This document shows positions 14,006-21,811 of a DNA stretch of 64,000 nt, in pieces. This stretch comes from Paracoccaceae bacterium (GTDB lineage: Bacteria > Pseudomonadota > Alphaproteobacteria > Rhodobacterales > Rhodobacteraceae). The stretch lies in assembly GCA_021775315.1 (NCBI GenBank), contig JAJFIC010000012.1:1-64000 (forward strand), given 5' to 3'. Under the pieces are notes generated by a model that saw only the letters and a program-made list of their open reading frames with translations, was not told the origin of the DNA and searched no databases. The translations under genes were made by a program, and so were the position numbers. Positions within the stretch are counted from its first letter, which is position 1. Every line of letters begins with the position of its first letter.

Positions 14006-15112
14006 CTAGCCGTTCTGGGCCAGGAAATAGCCAGCAACACCGGCGATAATCAGGCCAAGCACAACCGCGATGGTGATTTTCATCGCGGAATAGGGCCGTT
14101 CGCCCTGCACGGCACCTGTGCGGCCATTGACGACAAAGCGGTAAGTTTTGCCGCGGTATTTATAAGCCGCCAGCCAGACCGGCAGCAGGATATGTTTGAA
14201 TGTAACGTCCTTGACCGCAGTTTTAACCTGATCGACCTGTTGGCGGTCACCGCCGATGTCAAAGCGCACATCGCGATCAATCATCCGGTCCATATAGGCG
14301 CGCGCCTCGGTATATCCGTCCTCAAGTTCAACGGTGTAGCCTTCGGCGCGAAAACCGGCCAGATATTCCGGGCGATAAGGCTCAAGCGCCTCTAGGTCCC
14401 AAGGCTCCAGCGCGTCGGTATTTGACTTTGGCAGGCTTTTTGAGCCGAGCACCAGAACATCGTCGAAAAACCGCGCGACCCGGCCAGAGGCCGCAGACCA
14501 GCGGATTTTCTGCACTTGTTCCTGTCGGGTTTCCATTTTCCCGTCAACTTCAACCCGGACATTGCGGGTTTCATAATAGATCGTGCCGCGTTTGCCTTTG
14601 TACTGGCTTTTGGTGTCAGCGTCATAGGTCCAGAACGGCACATAGATGCCCTGCATCGCGCGTCCTTTGCGGGCGTATTGTTGCAAGCCATTCGGTGCAA
14701 ACCAAAGCCGGCCCAGCCATTTGGTCATGGCTTGGCGGGCCTGTTTTTCCGACTTGGCAAAGGGCAGCAGGGCGGCGGGTTTTATGCGCCGATGGGTGCC
14801 GGTATCGGTGACGATGGGGGTGGCGCAAAACGCACATTCCGTGGCGTGGATTTCCTCGGAAAACTCAATCTGGGCGCCGCAGTTTTCGCATTTGGAAAAC
14901 CGGGTTTCCTCAATATCACTGTCGGGCAATTCCGATTTCAGCGCCGCTTTGAAATCAAGTTCTTCGATTGCTGTCGCCGGGCGGCGTTTGTTGCCCAACT
15001 CTTGGCTTGCCCCGCAATGATCGCAGGTTAATTGATCCGAGCCGGGTTCGAACCGCAAGTCCGAACCACATGTGCCACAGGGGAATTTATGTGGGTTTTC
15101 GTCGTTGCCCAT
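14006..15112 (-). CDS. Zinc-ribbon membrane protein (YdjG-like)
   Basis: A 368-residue protein with two zinc ribbons at the N-terminus: CGTCG...CDHCG (about residues 13-34) and CENCG...CAFC (about 75-96). The middle, with YVPFWTYDADTKSQYKG and YRGKTYRFVVNG, is a conserved region of unknown fold often misannotated as primosomal or helicase-related. The last 20 residues form one membrane helix, so the ribbons face the cytoplasm. In Bacillus subtilis a zinc-ribbon membrane protein of this kind (YdjG) works with a PspA homologue and an SPFH protein (YdjI) in membrane stress. Here it is the last gene of the unit and follows the SPFH gene by 15 bases, supporting the same partnership. Confidence 0.75.
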   Translation of the reverse strand: MGNDENPHKFPCGTCGSDLRFEPGSDQLTCDHCGASQELGNKRRPATAIEELDFKAALKSELPDSDIEETRFSKCENCGAQIEFSEEIHATECAFCATPIVTDTGTHRRIKPAALLPFAKSEKQARQAMTKWLGRLWFAPNGLQQYARKGRAMQGIYVPFWTYDADTKSQYKGKRGTIYYETRNVRVEVDGKMETRQEQVQKIRWSAASGRVARFFDDVLVLGSKSLPKSNTDALEPWDLEALEPYRPEYLAGFRAEGYTVELEDGYTEARAYMDRMIDRDVRFDIGGDRQQVDQVKTAVKDVTFKHILLPVWLAAYKYRGKTYRFVVNGRTGAVQGERPYSAMKITIAVVLGLIIAGVAGYFLAQNG

Positions 15113-15127
15113 CAGTATCTGGTCCGA

Positions 15128-16249
15128 TCAAGTGGAAGGCAGGGGTGGTGGCAGGATGGTGAACAACGTCGCCAGTTCGGCCACGTCACCCGCAGCTATC
15201 CAGCCGTCCTGACCAGCGGTCCAGACCAATGTTTTGCGATCAAGGCTGCCCTCGGTCGCCATACGTCCCATGGCCGCACGCGAATACGGCCCTTTGGTCT
15301 GGCCGTTATCAGCCACATGCCAGACATGTTCTACAGGCGGCGGAGGCGGAGGTGGGGCCGCAACAGGTGCAGCCGGACTTGCGCCCCAAGGGCCGGGTTG
15401 TTGCCCCGCCATCTGTTGCGCCATTGCCAAGCCCATACCGGCACCCATTCCGGCGGCCATACCGCCACCGGCAGGGTTGTTCGCAGCCGCAGTGATCGCT
15501 TCAGCGGCTGAAAACTGGGTATATTTGCCCAGATCGCCAGCGATGCCCATTGAGGTGCGTTTGTCCAAAACCTCTTCCACTGCGGGCGGCAGCGAGATGT
15601 TTTCGATCATCAGCGCGGGCATCGACAGGCCATATTCCGCCAGATCCGGCGCGATTTTGGCCGCCAGCATTTTGCTGAGATCCAATGTATTGGCCGCCAT
15701 ATCAAGCACCGGAATGCCGGATCCTGCGATGGCCGCGGAAAACTTGGACACGATGATGTTTCGGATCTGATAGCTGATTTCATCCATGGTAAATTCACCA
15801 TCGGTGCCAACGATTTCGGTCAGGAAACGCGCGGCATCAGACACCCGGATCGAATAGGTGCCGAACGCGCGCAGGCGCACCGGGCCGAATTCAGGATCGC
15901 GGCACATGATCGGGTTCTTTGTGCCCCATTTCAGGTCCTGAAAGCGGGTGGTGTTGACGAAATAAATCTCGGATTTGAACGGGCTTTCAAAACCATGATC
16001 CCAATGCTGAAGCGTCGTCATGATCGGCATGTTGTTGGTTTCAAGCAAATAAAGGCCGGGCGTGAACACATCCGCCAACTGGCCTTCGTGGATAAAGACG
16101 GCCGCTTGTCCTTCGCGCACCGTCAGTTTGGCACCATATTTGATCTCGTGCGCTTCACGTTCAAACCGCCAGACCATGGTGTCGCGTGTGTCATCGGTCC
16201 AGTGGATAACGTCGATGAACTCGCCCGTCAGAAAGTCAAAAATTCCCAT
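15128..16249 (-). CDS. SPFH-domain protein with C-terminal GYF_2 domain (YdjI-like)
   Basis: A 373-residue protein. Residues about 25-240 form an SPFH/band-7-type domain of the YdjI or virion-core-like group (LTVREGQAAVFIHEGQLADV, then FGTYSIRVSDAARFL). A glycine, alanine and methionine-rich linker and a run of seven prolines follow. The last 55 residues (HVWHVADNGQTKGPYSR...LVWTAGQDGWIAAGDV) are a GYF_2 domain, a module that binds proline-rich peptides. No transmembrane helix is evident, so it probably assembles on the inner face of the membrane through partners. It sits between the DUF2927 lipoprotein and the zinc-ribbon protein with short gaps. Role in membrane integrity is inference from YdjI. 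Confidence 0.82.
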   Translation of the reverse strand: MGIFDFLTGEFIDVIHWTDDTRDTMVWRFEREAHEIKYGAKLTVREGQAAVFIHEGQLADVFTPGLYLLETNNMPIMTTLQHWDHGFESPFKSEIYFVNTTRFQDLKWGTKNPIMCRDPEFGPVRLRAFGTYSIRVSDAARFLTEIVGTDGEFTMDEISYQIRNIIVSKFSAAIAGSGIPVLDMAANTLDLSKMLAAKIAPDLAEYGLSMPALMIENISLPPAVEEVLDKRTSMGIAGDLGKYTQFSAAEAITAAANNPAGGGMAAGMGAGMGLAMAQQMAGQQPGPWGASPAAPVAAPPPPPPPVEHVWHVADNGQTKGPYSRAAMGRMATEGSLDRKTLVWTAGQDGWIAAGDVAELATLFTILPPPLPST

Positions 16250-16285: not shown

Positions 16286-17230
16286 CTAACCGCTGCCACT
16301 TAACATTTCAGCCGCGATTTTGGGCAGCAAAGGGCGGGCGGTTTTGGCTGTCATGCCGATTTTCAGCCGCTTGTCATACAGCATACGCAAAAGCAATTCG
16401 TCATGCCGGGTCAGCAGCGCAAATTCTTCGTCGTCATTGAAAATCGAGGGCCGCACATTCGGGTTGTCATTGGCCAGACCCAGGGCTTGCGCCATTTCTT
16501 CGTGAATACAGGACAGGCGCATCAGATCGGCATGTTCGGCTTTGACCAGAATGATGGCCGAATTATAGGCATTCACATTTGTCTGGTCCGAAAAAGCATA
16601 AGCCACGCAAAACGTGTTGCGCGGGCTGTTGGCGATTTCGCTGATGACCACCGGGTTAAGGCGCGGAATACGCGCCCTTAGCAGGGGGCCGACGGTTTTC
16701 TGCTCGTCGCGATGTAAAAACAGCACGTGGAAATTCGGATTATTATCAGTGACACGAATATCAAGGCCGCTTAGACGCGCCAGCCGGCGGGCATACGCGG
16801 TGACATTGGCGCGATCACGGGCGCGGGTTTTTTCCGGCACCAATTCACCAAACACCAGCCCGATGCGCACAGGTTGCTGCCAACGTCTGAGCGCGCTTGG
16901 CGTTTGCTGGGCGACGAACTGGCCGCCGCGTATGGTATATTCGTCATAAAGCGCGATACGCTCAAAATCCTCAGCCAGCGTCCGGGCGGAAAACGGCGCG
17001 TCTGATCCGCCGCTATCGGTTCGCAACAGGCCTTGGGCCTGCAATCGCGTCTGAACGCCGGTATAATATTGCTGCAACCGCAGGCTTTCTTCCGAACGGA
17101 TCAATTTCGCGTCAGGGTCCGGAATGCGGCTGACCGCCGGGGTGACATCACAGGCCGACAGGCCAATCAGGCCGCCGATCAGCAGGGAAATCAATCCCGG
17201 TCGAAGCAGGTTTTTCACTGAATAGCCCAT
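16286..17230 (-). CDS. DUF2927 lipoprotein with HEExxQ motif
   Basis: A 314-residue protein. The signal sequence ends in LIGLSAC, a lipobox, so it is an envelope lipoprotein. The C-terminal half has the DUF2927 signature SCIHEEMAQALGLANDNP and later FNDDEEFALLTRHDELLL. The HEEMAQ resembles the HExxH zinc motif of metallopeptidases but lacks the second histidine, so proteolysis is only a suggestion. I start at the ATG at 17230 because the longer frame (to 17329) runs into telA and would bury the signal peptide; the ribosome site AAAGAA is weak. It lies 19 bases after telA within the stress unit, adding a periplasmic member to an otherwise cytoplasmic and inner-membrane set. Confidence 0.8.
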   Translation of the reverse strand: MGYSVKNLLRPGLISLLIGGLIGLSACDVTPAVSRIPDPDAKLIRSEESLRLQQYYTGVQTRLQAQGLLRTDSGGSDAPFSARTLAEDFERIALYDEYTIRGGQFVAQQTPSALRRWQQPVRIGLVFGELVPEKTRARDRANVTAYARRLARLSGLDIRVTDNNPNFHVLFLHRDEQKTVGPLLRARIPRLNPVVISEIANSPRNTFCVAYAFSDQTNVNAYNSAIILVKAEHADLMRLSCIHEEMAQALGLANDNPNVRPSIFNDDEEFALLTRHDELLLRMLYDKRLKIGMTAKTARPLLPKIAAEMLSGSG

Positions 17231-17249: not shown

Positions 17250-18446
17250 TCATTTTGCTGCCGGTACGCTGTCGCCGATGGCGTGACCCATCGCGGTGCC
17301 GCTTGCCTTTGCCGCACTGAGCGTGTCACGCAAATCGCTTTCCATTTTCTTCAACTCCACTTCCGCCGCTGAGCGACGCGCTTTGCCCTGATCGGCAATG
17401 GCCAGCGATTCTTCAATCGTTGCAATCAGATCACGATTGGCGGTCTTTATGGCCTCGATGTCAAACACCCCACGCTCGACCTCTTCTCGGATGGCGCGGT
17501 TTGCCACTTTCAGGTTGGCCGCATTGGCCTTAAGCAGCTCATTCGTCAGGTCACTGGCCTCTTTAACCACTTTCGCAGCTTCAGCCGAGCGTTGGATCGT
17601 GATCGCCTGCGCCAACTGGCTTTCCCAAAGCGGGATGGTGTTGACCAGCGTTGAGTTGATCTTGGTCACCAGCGATTTGTCATTTTCCTGCACCAGTCGG
17701 ATCGACGGCATGGATTGCATGGTGACTTGGCGCGTCAGTTTCAAATCATGCACCCGGCGTTCCAGATCGTCGCGGGCTGAGCGTAAATCGCGCAATTCCT
17801 GTGCGACTTTCACTTGCTGGTCTTCCGGTGCGGCGGCAAGTGCCGCATCTTTCGCCGGGATATCCGTCGCGTCCAGTTCTTTAACGACCTCTTCACCGGC
17901 GGCGATATAAAGCCCCAATTCGTCGTAAAACTCTAGTGTCCGTTCATAAAGATTATCCAGTGATCGGATATCTTTCATCAAAGTATGTTCATGCTCCAGC
18001 AACTCGCCGGTGATCTTGTCGATCTGCAATTCCACAGTTTCATAGCGCGCCATGAACTTGACAAAGGGCGCCGCGCGCCCGGTGATCCATTCAAAAAAGC
18101 TGCGCTTTTTGCGGGTATCAAGTTCTGAGATTTCAAAGCCACGGATCGAGGTGACCATATTGGCCAGCGCCTCGCCCGCCGGGCCGACATCTTTGTTGCG
18201 AACGCCGTCCAGCATGTTCTGGCTGATCTGTTGCAAACCCGCCTGCGCGCGTGATCCGAACGACACGATGGATTGCGTGTTGTCGATTTCGATCTCGCCC
18301 ATGCGTTGTTTGATTTGCGCCTTCAAATCGCCCTTGGCGTCGCCAAGCGGCACGATGAGCGCGTTGGGTTCAACCAGCACGACGGCATTCACCTTTTCAA
18401 CCAGCTTGGTTGCTTTGGCGGCACTTGCAGTTCTGTCGTCGACCAT
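17250..18446 (-). CDS. telA: Toxic anion resistance protein, TelA family
   Basis: A 398-residue, almost entirely helical and acidic protein of the TelA/YceH family. Recognisable stretches are KKRSFFEWITGRAAPFVKFMA, LLEHEHTLMKDIRSLDNLYE and QSMPSIRLVQENDKSLVTKI, all typical of the family. Members are linked to tellurite, nisin and envelope-stress tolerance but the molecular act is not known. The start at 18446 has AAGGGGAG 5 bases upstream; an in-frame extension to 18509 overlaps the previous gene and is Cys/Lys-rich, unlike the family. TelA and XpaC-like genes are adjacent in many bacteria, as here with a 16-base gap, which supports joint function. Confidence 0.9.
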   Translation of the reverse strand: MVDDRTASAAKATKLVEKVNAVVLVEPNALIVPLGDAKGDLKAQIKQRMGEIEIDNTQSIVSFGSRAQAGLQQISQNMLDGVRNKDVGPAGEALANMVTSIRGFEISELDTRKKRSFFEWITGRAAPFVKFMARYETVELQIDKITGELLEHEHTLMKDIRSLDNLYERTLEFYDELGLYIAAGEEVVKELDATDIPAKDAALAAAPEDQQVKVAQELRDLRSARDDLERRVHDLKLTRQVTMQSMPSIRLVQENDKSLVTKINSTLVNTIPLWESQLAQAITIQRSAEAAKVVKEASDLTNELLKANAANLKVANRAIREEVERGVFDIEAIKTANRDLIATIEESLAIADQGKARRSAAEVELKKMESDLRDTLSAAKASGTAMGHAIGDSVPAAK

Positions 18447-18462
18447 AACACTCCCCTTATTT

Positions 18463-19353
18463 TCAGGCTTCAACGCCTTCGTGGCGCAATCTTTCGCGTA
18501 ACACTTCAATCTCTACATCAAGATCGCTGCGATCATCCAGCAGCATTTCGGCCCGCTGTGCATCGAAATTCTTTTCCAAATCGGCCAAAAGGGCCTCGTA
18601 ATCGGCCCGAACGCTGGCGTCTTGTGTCTTTTCATAAAGATCAACAAACTTGACCGTCGCGTCACTGGCGCCCATCAAATAGACGCTCAGATATTTGCGC
18701 GCACCGGTCAGATCACGCGGATCTTCTTCGATGGCGCGAAACATGGCGCGCGCTGAGGCGATGAAATTGTCCAGCCGTTTTCTAAGCATCCGATCACGCA
18801 GGCGATCCATCGCGCTCGACATTGTCGCGACCTGTTCCTCAGCCGCGTCAATGGCGCGTGCAACCCGTTTGCCGGGAAAAGCATCAAACCCGTCGACGCC
18901 TTTGTTTTTCAAAGGATCAATGCCAAAGGCCACCAGATGCAGCAAGGTCGCAAGGATGCCAACAACCACTGGCAGAATAAAACCTGCCCCACCCAAGACG
19001 GCCACGGCAACGCCAATGCCGCACAGGCTTGCCGCGATAATTTTGCGCGGCAGGGCAGGTCGGTTGGCGCGGCTGCGGGCGTCAAACGCGGCCTCGGCCT
19101 TTTGGCCTTCGCTTAGCATGAAGGCTGCAAATATCAGGATAACAAACGCCCCGAAATTCTGAATGATCCCAGCCGGATTGCCTGCCGTGATTGCGCCAAA
19201 GCCGGTGAACACCAAAGGCAGCGGCGCAAAGAACATCAACCGCGCCCGCAAACGCGCTTTGGATTTTGGACTTGCGGTATTTGCTTTTGGAACCGCCGAG
19301 GCGTTTTCAGATTTCGGGTTTGGGCTGAACTTGCCACCAAATTCCTGCGCCAT
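18463..19353 (-). CDS. XpaC-like membrane protein (5-bromo-4-chloroindolyl phosphate hydrolysis family)
   Basis: A 296-residue protein. Residues 1-35 are hydrophilic, 36-150 hold about four membrane helices (LMFFAPLPLVFTGFGAITAG, then FGAFVILIFAAFML and a long pair near 110-150), and the C-terminal 140 residues are a cytoplasmic coiled-coil-like helical domain (EEQVATMSSAMDRLRDRMLR and later DLDVEIEVLRERLRHEGV). This is the layout of XpaC, whose name comes from an indirect phenotype; it is not a proven hydrolase. Its ATG at 19353 shares a base with the TAA of the 30-residue upstream gene, and GGGGGG 8 bases before provides the ribosome site, so translation is probably coupled. Confidence 0.82.
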   Translation of the reverse strand: MAQEFGGKFSPNPKSENASAVPKANTASPKSKARLRARLMFFAPLPLVFTGFGAITAGNPAGIIQNFGAFVILIFAAFMLSEGQKAEAAFDARSRANRPALPRKIIAASLCGIGVAVAVLGGAGFILPVVVGILATLLHLVAFGIDPLKNKGVDGFDAFPGKRVARAIDAAEEQVATMSSAMDRLRDRMLRKRLDNFIASARAMFRAIEEDPRDLTGARKYLSVYLMGASDATVKFVDLYEKTQDASVRADYEALLADLEKNFDAQRAEMLLDDRSDLDVEIEVLRERLRHEGVEA

Positions 19354-19445
19354 TAATTGCCCCCCGGAACAAGGCCGGAACTGACCGCCAGAACCAACGC
19401 GAACAGAACCAGATAAGCAATCCACTGAAGCGTCGAATACGACAT
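19353..19445 (-). CDS. 30-residue membrane peptide coupled to the XpaC-like gene
   Basis: A frame too short for standard gene calls. It starts with ATG at 19445 behind an AAAGGG 6 bases upstream, and encodes about 30 residues: a short polar start MSYSTLQW, one hydrophobic helix (IAYLVLFALVLAV), and a tail SSGLVPGGN. The TAA overlaps the ATG of the XpaC-like gene (TAATG). A ribosome site, a membrane helix and exact stop-start overlap in one short frame are hard to get by chance. It lies between TerC and XpaC-like genes. I know no family; a regulatory or assembly subunit for the membrane proteins around it is a guess. Confidence 0.7.
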   Translation of the reverse strand: MSYSTLQWIAYLVLFALVLAVSSGLVPGGN

Positions 19446-19529
19446 CAAGACCCTTTGTTTACCACCGAAAATCAAATGTTTGGCCAGATATAACAGCCCC
19501 GCCAAACAATTGCCACTCTGCGTCCAGCA

Positions 19530-20345
19530 TCAATGCGATGCGTGTTCACGCTCGACCGCAAGTTTGCGCTGATACCCGGTTTGCACGATCTCAACCAATA
19601 CCAGAACCACAACGGAAAAATAGAAGGTCGATTTGGACATCGGCAGCAAGGGGTGATCAAACAGCATGATCTGTAACCCATCGTCATGCATCGCATGCGC
19701 CGCAGCAGGGCCAGCCTCGCCCAGCAGGACCACACCGACAATCAACAGGATAAACAGGCCAAGCACCTCATACATCCGGTTTCTTTTCAAAAACTCGGTG
19801 ACAGTATCGGCCAGCGCCAGCATGGCGACCCCGGACGCCAGAATTGCAATCGCTAAGATCACAAACACCTTGGTGATCGCGATGGCTGACAGAATGGAAT
19901 CAAAGCTGAAGATCAGGTTCATCATCACGATCATCAAAACCACCTGAAACGCTGATTTGCGGCTGGTATTGCCCATGGAATGTTCCAGCATATCAACCGA
20001 TAACATATGCGAGATTTCGCGCACCGCCGTATACATGATGAACACGCCGCCCAGCAAAAACACCGCAGTCGAAAAATTGACGCCGCCTGTAATTATACCG
20101 GGCATATCAAACACATAGAATGGTGTTTTCAGCATATCCAGCAGTTGGACCATCACAAAAAGCAGAACAATCCGCAGCACGACCGCGATGATAATCCCCC
20201 AGAATCGCACCGACCGCTGGTTTTCTTTCGGGGCGCGTTGCGATTCAATTGAGATGTATAAAAGGTTGTCAAACCCAAGAACCGCTTGCAGGAATATCAA
20301 CACCACAAGGTCGCTCAGGTTTGCAAAAGTCAGCAGGTCAGCCAT
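19530..20345 (-). CDS. TerC family integral membrane protein
   Basis: A 271-residue inner-membrane protein with about seven helices. The family's intramembrane acidic motifs are present: LGFDNLLYI (Asp26) and FSFDSILSAI, which are thought to line a metal-ion path. TerC-family proteins are tied to tellurite resistance and, in several bacteria, to manganese export that loads secreted enzymes. The ribosome site AGAAAG is weak. It is the first gene of the minus-strand unit, 84 bases ahead of the 30-residue peptide, and is divergent from the cold-shock gene across a 277-base region (20346-20622) where both promoters must lie; I see no clear operator there. Confidence 0.9.
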   Translation of the reverse strand: MADLLTFANLSDLVVLIFLQAVLGFDNLLYISIESQRAPKENQRSVRFWGIIIAVVLRIVLLFVMVQLLDMLKTPFYVFDMPGIITGGVNFSTAVFLLGGVFIMYTAVREISHMLSVDMLEHSMGNTSRKSAFQVVLMIVMMNLIFSFDSILSAIAITKVFVILAIAILASGVAMLALADTVTEFLKRNRMYEVLGLFILLIVGVVLLGEAGPAAAHAMHDDGLQIMLFDHPLLPMSKSTFYFSVVVLVLVEIVQTGYQRKLAVEREHASH

Positions 20346-20622
20346 GGTTCGCGCTTTCTGTCAGGTCATAAAATCGCCCGGCCCGTCTGGCCGATTTCGC
20401 CAATGTAATGGGTTTTTTGGCTGCGGTGAATTGCATATTCCGAATAACCGCAATTCGTCCAAATCTGAAATATTTGTTTTTTTGTGCAATTGCGTTAAAC
20501 TGCGCCCACGAAGTTACGACTGCTGACACTAAACCTTGGCTTTGGGCCGTTTTCGTGTAGCGCGCGACGACGTTGAAGGCGAACGCAAAGGCGCGGTCGC
20601 TCATCTCGGGGAGAATAAAGAG

Positions 20623-20829
20623 ATGGCCAAAGGTATAGTCAAATGGTTCAATTCCGCTAAAGGCTTCGGCTTTATCCAGCCGGAAGAAGGCGAAGGCGAT
20701 GTGTTTGTGCATATCACCGCCGTGCAAGAGGCCGGATTGACCGGGCTTGAGGACAATCAGGCAATTGAATACGAATTAGTCGACGGACGCGACGGGCGCA
20801 AAAGTGCCGGCAACCTGAAAGTCAGTTAA
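20623..20829 (+). CDS. Cold-shock protein (CspA family)
   Basis: A 68-residue single cold-shock domain that binds single-stranded RNA and DNA. RNP1 is KGFGFI (13-18) and RNP2 is VFVHI (27-31), with the aromatic residues in place. The start MAKGIVKWFNSAKGFGF is canonical; a frame extending upstream to 20536 is non-conserved. GGGGAG followed by AAAGAG lies before the ATG. The leader of about 100 bases or more could fold as a thermosensor as in other csp genes, but I cannot show it. Two tandem hairpins follow the stop. Confidence 0.95.
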   Translation: MAKGIVKWFNSAKGFGFIQPEEGEGDVFVHITAVQEAGLTGLEDNQAIEYELVDGRDGRKSAGNLKVS

Positions 20830-20831
20830 AA

Positions 20832-20866
20832 CCTGCGGTAATGCGCAGGCTGACCTGAAAACAGGT
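20832..20866. terminator. Tandem hairpins between cold-shock and rluB genes
   Basis: CCTGCG-GTAATG-CGCAGG (20832-20849) followed by ACCTG-AAAA-CAGGT (20853-20866). They fill the space between two convergent stop codons. No long T run follows, so termination strength is uncertain. Confidence 0.5.
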
Positions 20867-20870
20867 GTGT

Positions 20871-21728
20871 TTACCGTTTTGGACGACGCAGGGATTTTGA
20901 CGGATCACCTGCGCGCGCGCGAGGTGTGTGCCGACTTTTCGGGCCGGAACGCTTGGGTTTTGGTGCGGCGGTGCCGATATCCAGATCGGTACCCAACACA
21001 TCCTCGCCCAATTGATCCTGCAAGACTTTGGACTTCACAGGTTCGACCTTGCCGGGCACAAGATCACCCAGTTGAAACGGCCCGTAAGACACCCTGATCA
21101 ACCGGTTGACCTTTAGGTTCACCACGTCCATTGCCCGGCGGATTTCACGGTTCTTGCCTTCGCGCAGGCCAATCGTCAGCCAGGCGTTGGCCCCCTGCTG
21201 GCGATCAATAGTGACCGCCATCGGCTGAAATCGTTCGCCTTCAACCACAATGCCTTTGCGCAATGGCTCTAGCTGGGCATCGCCGGGTACACCGTTGACC
21301 CGGACGCGGTATTTGCGAACCCAGCCAGTTGAAGGCAATTCCAGACGGCGTTTCAACCCGCCATCATTGGTCAGCAAAAGCAACCCTTCGGAATTGATAT
21401 CAAGCCGACCAACGCTCATCACCCGCGGCAGATCATCGGGCAGGGTTTCAAAAACCGTGCGGCGGCCTTTTTCATCGCGCTCGCTGGTGACCAGCCCAAT
21501 CGGTTTATAATACCGCCACAGCCGCGCTGGTTCCGCCGCCGCGATCGGCTTGCCGTCAACCAGCACCCGATCAGATGCGGTGATGTTCAGCGCCGGGCTG
21601 TCAATGACTGCGCCATTTACCACGACCCGGCCAGCGGTGATCATGCGTTCAGCCTCGCGGCGCGAAGCAACGCCAGCCCGAGACAGCACTTTGGCGATGC
21701 GATCGCCCTTTGGGGGTTCTTGTTCCAT
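20871..21728 (-). CDS. rluB: 23S rRNA pseudouridine synthase, RsuA/RluB family
   Basis: Isomerises a uridine in ribosomal RNA. The 285-residue protein has an N-terminal S4 RNA-binding domain (RIAKVLSRAGVASRREAERMI) and the RsuA-type catalytic core with GRLDINSEGLLLLTNDG, where Asp110 is the catalytic aspartate, and later GKNREIRRAM. A basic tail after residue 245 (rich in K, R, P) extends beyond the core. Target assignment to position 2605 of 23S rRNA is by resemblance to RluB, and RluE/RsuA-type targets cannot be excluded. The ATG at 21728 gives the usual N-terminus; no good ribosome site is visible for it or for 21764. Divergent from tadA. Confidence 0.85.
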   Translation of the reverse strand: MEQEPPKGDRIAKVLSRAGVASRREAERMITAGRVVVNGAVIDSPALNITASDRVLVDGKPIAAAEPARLWRYYKPIGLVTSERDEKGRRTVFETLPDDLPRVMSVGRLDINSEGLLLLTNDGGLKRRLELPSTGWVRKYRVRVNGVPGDAQLEPLRKGIVVEGERFQPMAVTIDRQQGANAWLTIGLREGKNREIRRAMDVVNLKVNRLIRVSYGPFQLGDLVPGKVEPVKSKVLQDQLGEDVLGTDLDIGTAAPKPKRSGPKSRHTPRARAGDPSKSLRRPKR

Positions 21729-21811
21729 GTGGGCCGCTATAGAGTGCGGCGCGCGCCACTCCAAGCGAAAGATTGCTTGTGTAGGGGCAGAACAGCAGGC
21801 ATTTGAACCGG

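Follow-up and report, generated by a model that had tools for sequence, protein, structure and literature searches.

The gene row and its widest gap

The window, by which is meant the whole 64,000-nucleotide stretch analysed from contig JAJFIC010000012.1 of a Paracoccaceae bacterium, carries on its minus strand a gene row that leads from an XpaC-like protein through a TelA family protein, a putative lipoprotein and an SPFH/Band 7 protein to a zinc-ribbon-like protein, with a TerC family membrane protein as an optional upstream neighbour (Table 1). A PF10112 gene is thereby followed by a PF05816 gene, the succession that marks an XpaC-TelA module. Most gaps in the row measure about 15-36 nt, whereas the interval between TerC and XpaC is the widest at 176 nt and holds a short reading frame, referred to here as the microprotein ORF. 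TerC lies 84 nt upstream of this ORF in the window and adjoins it in the window's genus too.

Two further features of the surroundings can be recorded. The SPFH/Band 7-GYF and zinc-ribbon-like proteins that close the TelA row (14006-16249) resemble a membrane-scaffold pair. A cold-shock (CspA-like) gene at 20623-20829 diverges from TerC; L086 and the genus loci L001-L005 share this layout.

Table 1. Features of the XpaC-TelA gene row, with window positions
Feature	Position	Strand	Basis
Zinc-ribbon-like protein, C-terminal hydrophobic segment, last of row	14006..15112	-	Sub-threshold domain hits only
SPFH/Band 7 + GYF_2 domain protein	15128..16249	-	Pfam
DUF2927 (PF11150) putative lipoprotein	16286..17230	-	Pfam E 7e-59
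TelA family protein (PF05816), next after XpaC	17250..18446	-	Pfam E 5e-104
XpaC-like protein, PF10112 (Halogen_Hydrol), 296 aa	18463..19353	-	Pfam E 6e-27; AlphaFold2 pLDDT 90
Microprotein ORF, 30 aa, MSYSTLQWIAYLVLFALVLAVSSGLVPGGN, stop TAA	19353..19445	-	Translation; profile match; dN/dS in related genus
GGGGGG, Shine-Dalgarno-like site of XpaC, within microprotein C-terminal Gly-Gly codons	19360..19365	-	Sequence
AAAGGG, Shine-Dalgarno-like, 5 nt before microprotein ATG	19451..19456	-	Sequence
TerC family membrane protein, upstream in some loci	19530..20345	-	Pfam E 1e-37

Read on the minus strand from 19445 to 19353, the window translates from ATG through 30 codons to TAA, and the product contains one hydrophobic helix at about residues 8-24. 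The stop codon (19355-19353) and the XpaC start codon (19353-19351) have one base in common, the last A of TAATG. An earlier note on this DNA had described an ORF with its own AAAGGG site, a single hydrophobic helix and a stop overlapping the next start, set in the only notable gap of the operon, and the sequence bears out each of these points. The pattern of ribosome sites extends to related genomes, with G-rich or AGG-type sites 5' of most microprotein homologues, and with the XpaC site likewise placed inside the microprotein C-terminal codons in most relatives. At 93 nt the window ORF is of borderline length for gene callers, and most homologues have 26-29 codons. Searches for other signals gave no Rfam match for a leader or riboswitch in 18900-21800 at E 0.5 and no consensus sigma-70-type promoter in 19300-20700.

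Selection on the microprotein

The synonymous-bias check that had been proposed for this frame gave a clear answer. Across 27 species of one related genus, which carry 29-aa versions, dN/dS is 0.107 in the proposed frame, whereas shifting the frame gives 0.86 in one case and 3.6 in the other; purifying selection acts on the microprotein amino-acid sequence, and in that frame only. The value for XpaC in the same 27 species is 0.124, so that constraint on the microprotein is as strict as that on its neighbour. Confined to microprotein codons 2-22, clear of the ribosome site of XpaC, the estimate is 0.123 (codon bootstrap, 95% CI 0.06-0.22). Placement of this site in the last Gly-Gly codons explains conservation of the microprotein C-terminus but not of its N-terminus. 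Variability at the three codon positions is 0.12/0.04/0.25; for the 120 nt preceding the ORF it is 0.42. In the window's own genus pN/pS is about 0.4-0.5, with pS near-saturated and divergence too high for a clean estimate.

A chance ORF without a product would be the simplest account of a frame of only 30 codons, given that hydrophobic frames are frequent in GC-rich DNA. The dN/dS test, the conservation of length, start and stop, and profile matches in other genera that reach E 3e-15 make that account scarcely credible. Because its sequence is kept as strictly as that of XpaC, the microprotein is considered a real protein, and it is practically certain that the ORF is a genuine gene under selection.

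Distribution and linkage to XpaC

XpaC homologues were drawn from a whole-genome set, in which they occur in 62 of 121 relatives and in 258 of 295 genomes (294 genera) across the host's bacterial family, and the DNA 5' of XpaC was read at each fetched locus. At 91 loci a like peptide is encoded by a frame whose stop falls at the XpaC start or shortly upstream of it. A family-wide profile was built from 44 peptides over 27 positions and used with a match cut-off of E <= 0.01; the window microprotein matches it at E 6e-11 in its own genome. Matches were found in 217 of the 295 family genomes, all 217 of which have XpaC, and in none of the 37 genomes that lack it (Fisher p 1.5e-25). In every placement compared (86/86) the match lies immediately upstream of XpaC on the same strand. 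The microprotein thus co-occurs obligately with XpaC and adjoins it in this bacterial family, and it displays the co-occurrence and shared operon expected of a small membrane subunit of the CydX or KdpF kind.

There remain 41 genomes with XpaC and no profile match. Ten of these were read: nine have a divergent microprotein copy and one, L164, a broken frame, with a stop inside the microprotein frame (L164:880-1000) and XpaC intact in a metagenome-assembled genome that is 89% complete and 4% contaminated. Apart from this exception, the frame is nearly always kept in relatives whose XpaC is intact, the point on which the earlier note had staked its proposal. dN/dS, profile and adjacency lend strong support to its central claim of a hidden membrane peptide with a single helix and coupling to the following gene.

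Among 289 genomes sampled across the class, strong matches came only from the same bacterial family, with two others marginal, and no convincing recognisable homologue was found 5' of XpaC outside it. Two alphaproteobacteria from outside the family (L066, L076) do have small hydrophobic ORFs that overlap the XpaC start or directly adjoin it; their sequence is unlike that of the microprotein, and they are possibly convergent.

The neighbourhood bears on which gene the peptide belongs with. Of 95 related loci, 93 have TelA directly downstream of XpaC, and the DUF2927 and SPFH genes come after it wherever the locus extends that far. TerC is recognised upstream in only 29 of the 95; at other loci an rRNA pseudouridine synthase gene often takes the upstream place. 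In six loci (L029, L031, L034, L045, L052, L055) the order is XpaC2 - microprotein - XpaC1 - TelA, the upstream XpaC2 or similar ORF being divergent (XpaC-like, 25-34% identical where measured).

Sequence anatomy and two-helix forms

Over the 91 loci the microprotein has the consensus MSxxGLQKxA[FY]xLLxxLxLYVxxxGGx. Its start codon is almost always at the same position, usually behind a G-rich ribosome site, and where the start of a one-helix form is recognised its length is 26-30 aa in almost every locus. L14 is invariant (89/89), and A/S10 and F/Y11 are nearly so. In 68 of 73 cases lysine or arginine stands next to the helix at its N-terminal end, as against 6 of 73 at the C-terminal end, a bias from which an N-in/C-out topology is predicted. 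The conserved positions A10, F/Y11, L14, position 18 and V21 fall along one side of the helix, which suggests a conserved face; the helical moment of conservation, a weak test, gave a permutation p of 0.04 for columns 9-23 and of 0.09-0.23 with other windows of columns.

At 20 of the 91 loci an upstream extension of the frame adds a second hydrophobic helix, giving a microprotein of about 65-75 aa; Sulfitobacter, Rubellimicrobium and Flavimaricola are among the carriers. In most of these loci the start of the one-helix form is retained, in frame, inside the longer ORF, and in L023 and L089 it is preceded by AAGGAGGAC, a strong ribosome site. Candidates for such nested genes, having two helices, an in-frame internal ATG and in some cases a ribosome-site-like sequence, are L087:2700-3000, L023, L089, L063, L094 and L120. 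Two-helix loci may possibly yield two nested products, to judge from these starts. Mapped on the XpaC tree, the most economical count is seven changes between one- and two-helix forms, three of them forced by well-supported branches; as to which form is ancestral, the tree gives no decision.

XpaC and the read-through model

The AlphaFold2 model of XpaC (pLDDT 90) has predicted membrane helices at residues 32-56, 60-92, 103-118 and 126-143, the membrane assignment being read from hydrophobicity, followed by four long helices in a predicted cytosolic bundle. No sequence relative of XpaC was found in the PDB, and fold searches (Foldseek, VIA-align) returned generic helical bundles only. Among the loci read there is no natural in-frame fusion of microprotein and XpaC. 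Since the two share a frame in some loci, with a stop between them, such pairs could be modelled as read-through. With 27 in-frame pairs and unpaired XpaC rows as input, AlphaFold2 rendered the microprotein as a helix at pLDDT of only about 70-76, a model from which no interface with XpaC is claimed.

Relation to known systems

Small membrane proteins with one helix are well known as modulators of larger membrane proteins, among them AcrZ with AcrB, KdpF with KdpABC, CydX with CydAB, MgtS and SgrT, and some, such as CydX and KdpF, are encoded in the operon of their partner. Proteins of this kind resemble the microprotein in having about 30-50 aa and one helix, but no sequence relation to it was found, and XpaC would be a new partner family for this kind. 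Envelope-stress systems likewise contain membrane partners of the PspB, PspC and LiaF type. These share with the microprotein small size, membrane location and, on the reading proposed below, a place in an envelope-stress module, a likeness that is one of analogy only, but they differ in operon and show no domain match.

The window microprotein matched nothing in Pfam, NCBIfam or PHROG, and its 44 homologues gave only scattered weak hits in these libraries (E >= 0.005). Because no sequence family matches, it was filed as a new microprotein family, which would probably work much as CydX, KdpF and AcrZ do in their membrane complexes. No paper on the microprotein was found in a partial coverage of the literature, so that "undescribed" is to be read as provisional.

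The same families, PF10112 and PF05816, make up gene pairs of Firmicutes (xpaC-yaaN, llmg_1115-1116, lmo1966-1967) for which an envelope-stress connection is on record. B. subtilis xpaC-yaaN belongs to the SigW core regulon of envelope stress (PMC3498285), and XpaC/TelA relatives belong to the CesSR envelope-stress regulon in L. lactis (PMC3139573) and to the LiaR envelope-stress regulon in E. faecium (PMC10269926). In L. monocytogenes lmo1966-1967 is induced by a bacteriocin (PMC12791056), and an lmo1967 mutant is cited in the same paper as having raised sensitivity to nisin and tellurite. A coupled microprotein is absent from this cited literature on the Firmicutes pair, whereas here it precedes XpaC throughout the bacterial family. 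We infer that the envelope-stress role may apply to this alphaproteobacterial family as well.

Proposed role and alternatives

The reading preferred here, with a probability of roughly 0.6, is that the microprotein, made by translation coupled to that of XpaC, binds XpaC as a subunit or as a partner in its assembly. The gene product would be a 26-30 aa single-pass membrane protein, predicted to lie N-in/C-out and dedicated to the four-helix XpaC. Ribosomes that have translated it would terminate at the TAATG or TGATG overlap, or a few bases short of the XpaC ATG, and would re-initiate on XpaC by way of the G-rich site in the last microprotein codons. Such coupling of termination and re-initiation, for which the overlap and site placement speak, would cause the two proteins to be made together at the membrane. 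The microprotein helix could then pack on the membrane helices of XpaC through A10, F/Y11, L14, position 18 and V21, and packing would either stabilise XpaC or tune its work with TelA in the envelope-stress module. Physical binding to XpaC, with an effect on XpaC-TelA, is what we infer from this arrangement. Against this reading stand the low pLDDT of the microprotein helix in the read-through model, the weak helical-face test, the intact XpaC beside a broken frame in L164, and XpaC proteins outside the bacterial family that have no recognisable homologue in front of them.

The partner might instead be sought elsewhere in the row. Regulation of the transporter encoded alongside, as the earlier note had suggested, would have to concern TerC, which is next door in the window and in the window's genus; given that TerC is beside the peptide in under a third of loci, that the peptide persists without it and that peptide presence follows XpaC without exception, TerC was ruled out as partner on its neighbourhood, and a TerC regulator is very improbable. 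From the same figures, together with the near-constant TelA, it was concluded that the peptide goes with XpaC; what survives of the suggestion is its other half, a role with the adjacent membrane protein, provided that this is XpaC. If the peptide worked not with XpaC alone but with the entire TelA-XpaC complex, or with the SPFH protein or DUF2927 lipoprotein, the constancy of TelA and of the genes after it would be accounted for, but adjacency and coupling point to XpaC. Of the XpaC-TelA pair, moreover, it is XpaC that is predicted to be a membrane protein with several helices, and such a wider role is rather improbable. XpaC, alone or with TelA, is probably the functional partner.

A different objection is that only the act of translation matters, the ORF serving as a cis-acting leader. 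Its translation would either provide coupling or, through an SRP signal-anchor, carry the mRNA to the membrane ahead of XpaC synthesis, and the peptide once released would do nothing itself. That the stop nearly everywhere overlaps the XpaC start or lies a short gap from it, and that the ORF contains the ribosome site of XpaC, would suit such a leader, as would a strongly hydrophobic N-terminal anchor suited to membrane targeting. A leader does not readily explain, however, why amino-acid identity beyond hydrophobicity is kept along the whole peptide (Q/R7, K8, A10, F/Y11, L14), why dN/dS is as low as that of XpaC even upstream of the ribosome site, or why two-helix versions occur; XpaC, moreover, carries its own G-rich ribosome site. 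We regard a leader as unlikely, and a bound XpaC partner as the better account.

Implications

XpaC and TelA are widespread and figure in studies of bacteriocin and antibiotic resistance, but we know of no biochemical activity for either. A third obligate component of 27-30 aa would explain how studies of XpaC only could mislead, and the microprotein offers a concrete handle on the XpaC complex. To the genomes of abundant marine bacteria is added a conserved microprotein family, encoded for the most part in less than 90 nt per gene. The most far-reaching version, an undescribed family whose members are an essential subunit of XpaC-TelA and in about one fifth of lineages use nested starts to give isoforms with one helix and with two, is offered tentatively and as doubtful in its entirety; if true, with nested isoforms of an essential subunit, the microprotein would be a tunable membrane component of the envelope-stress response.
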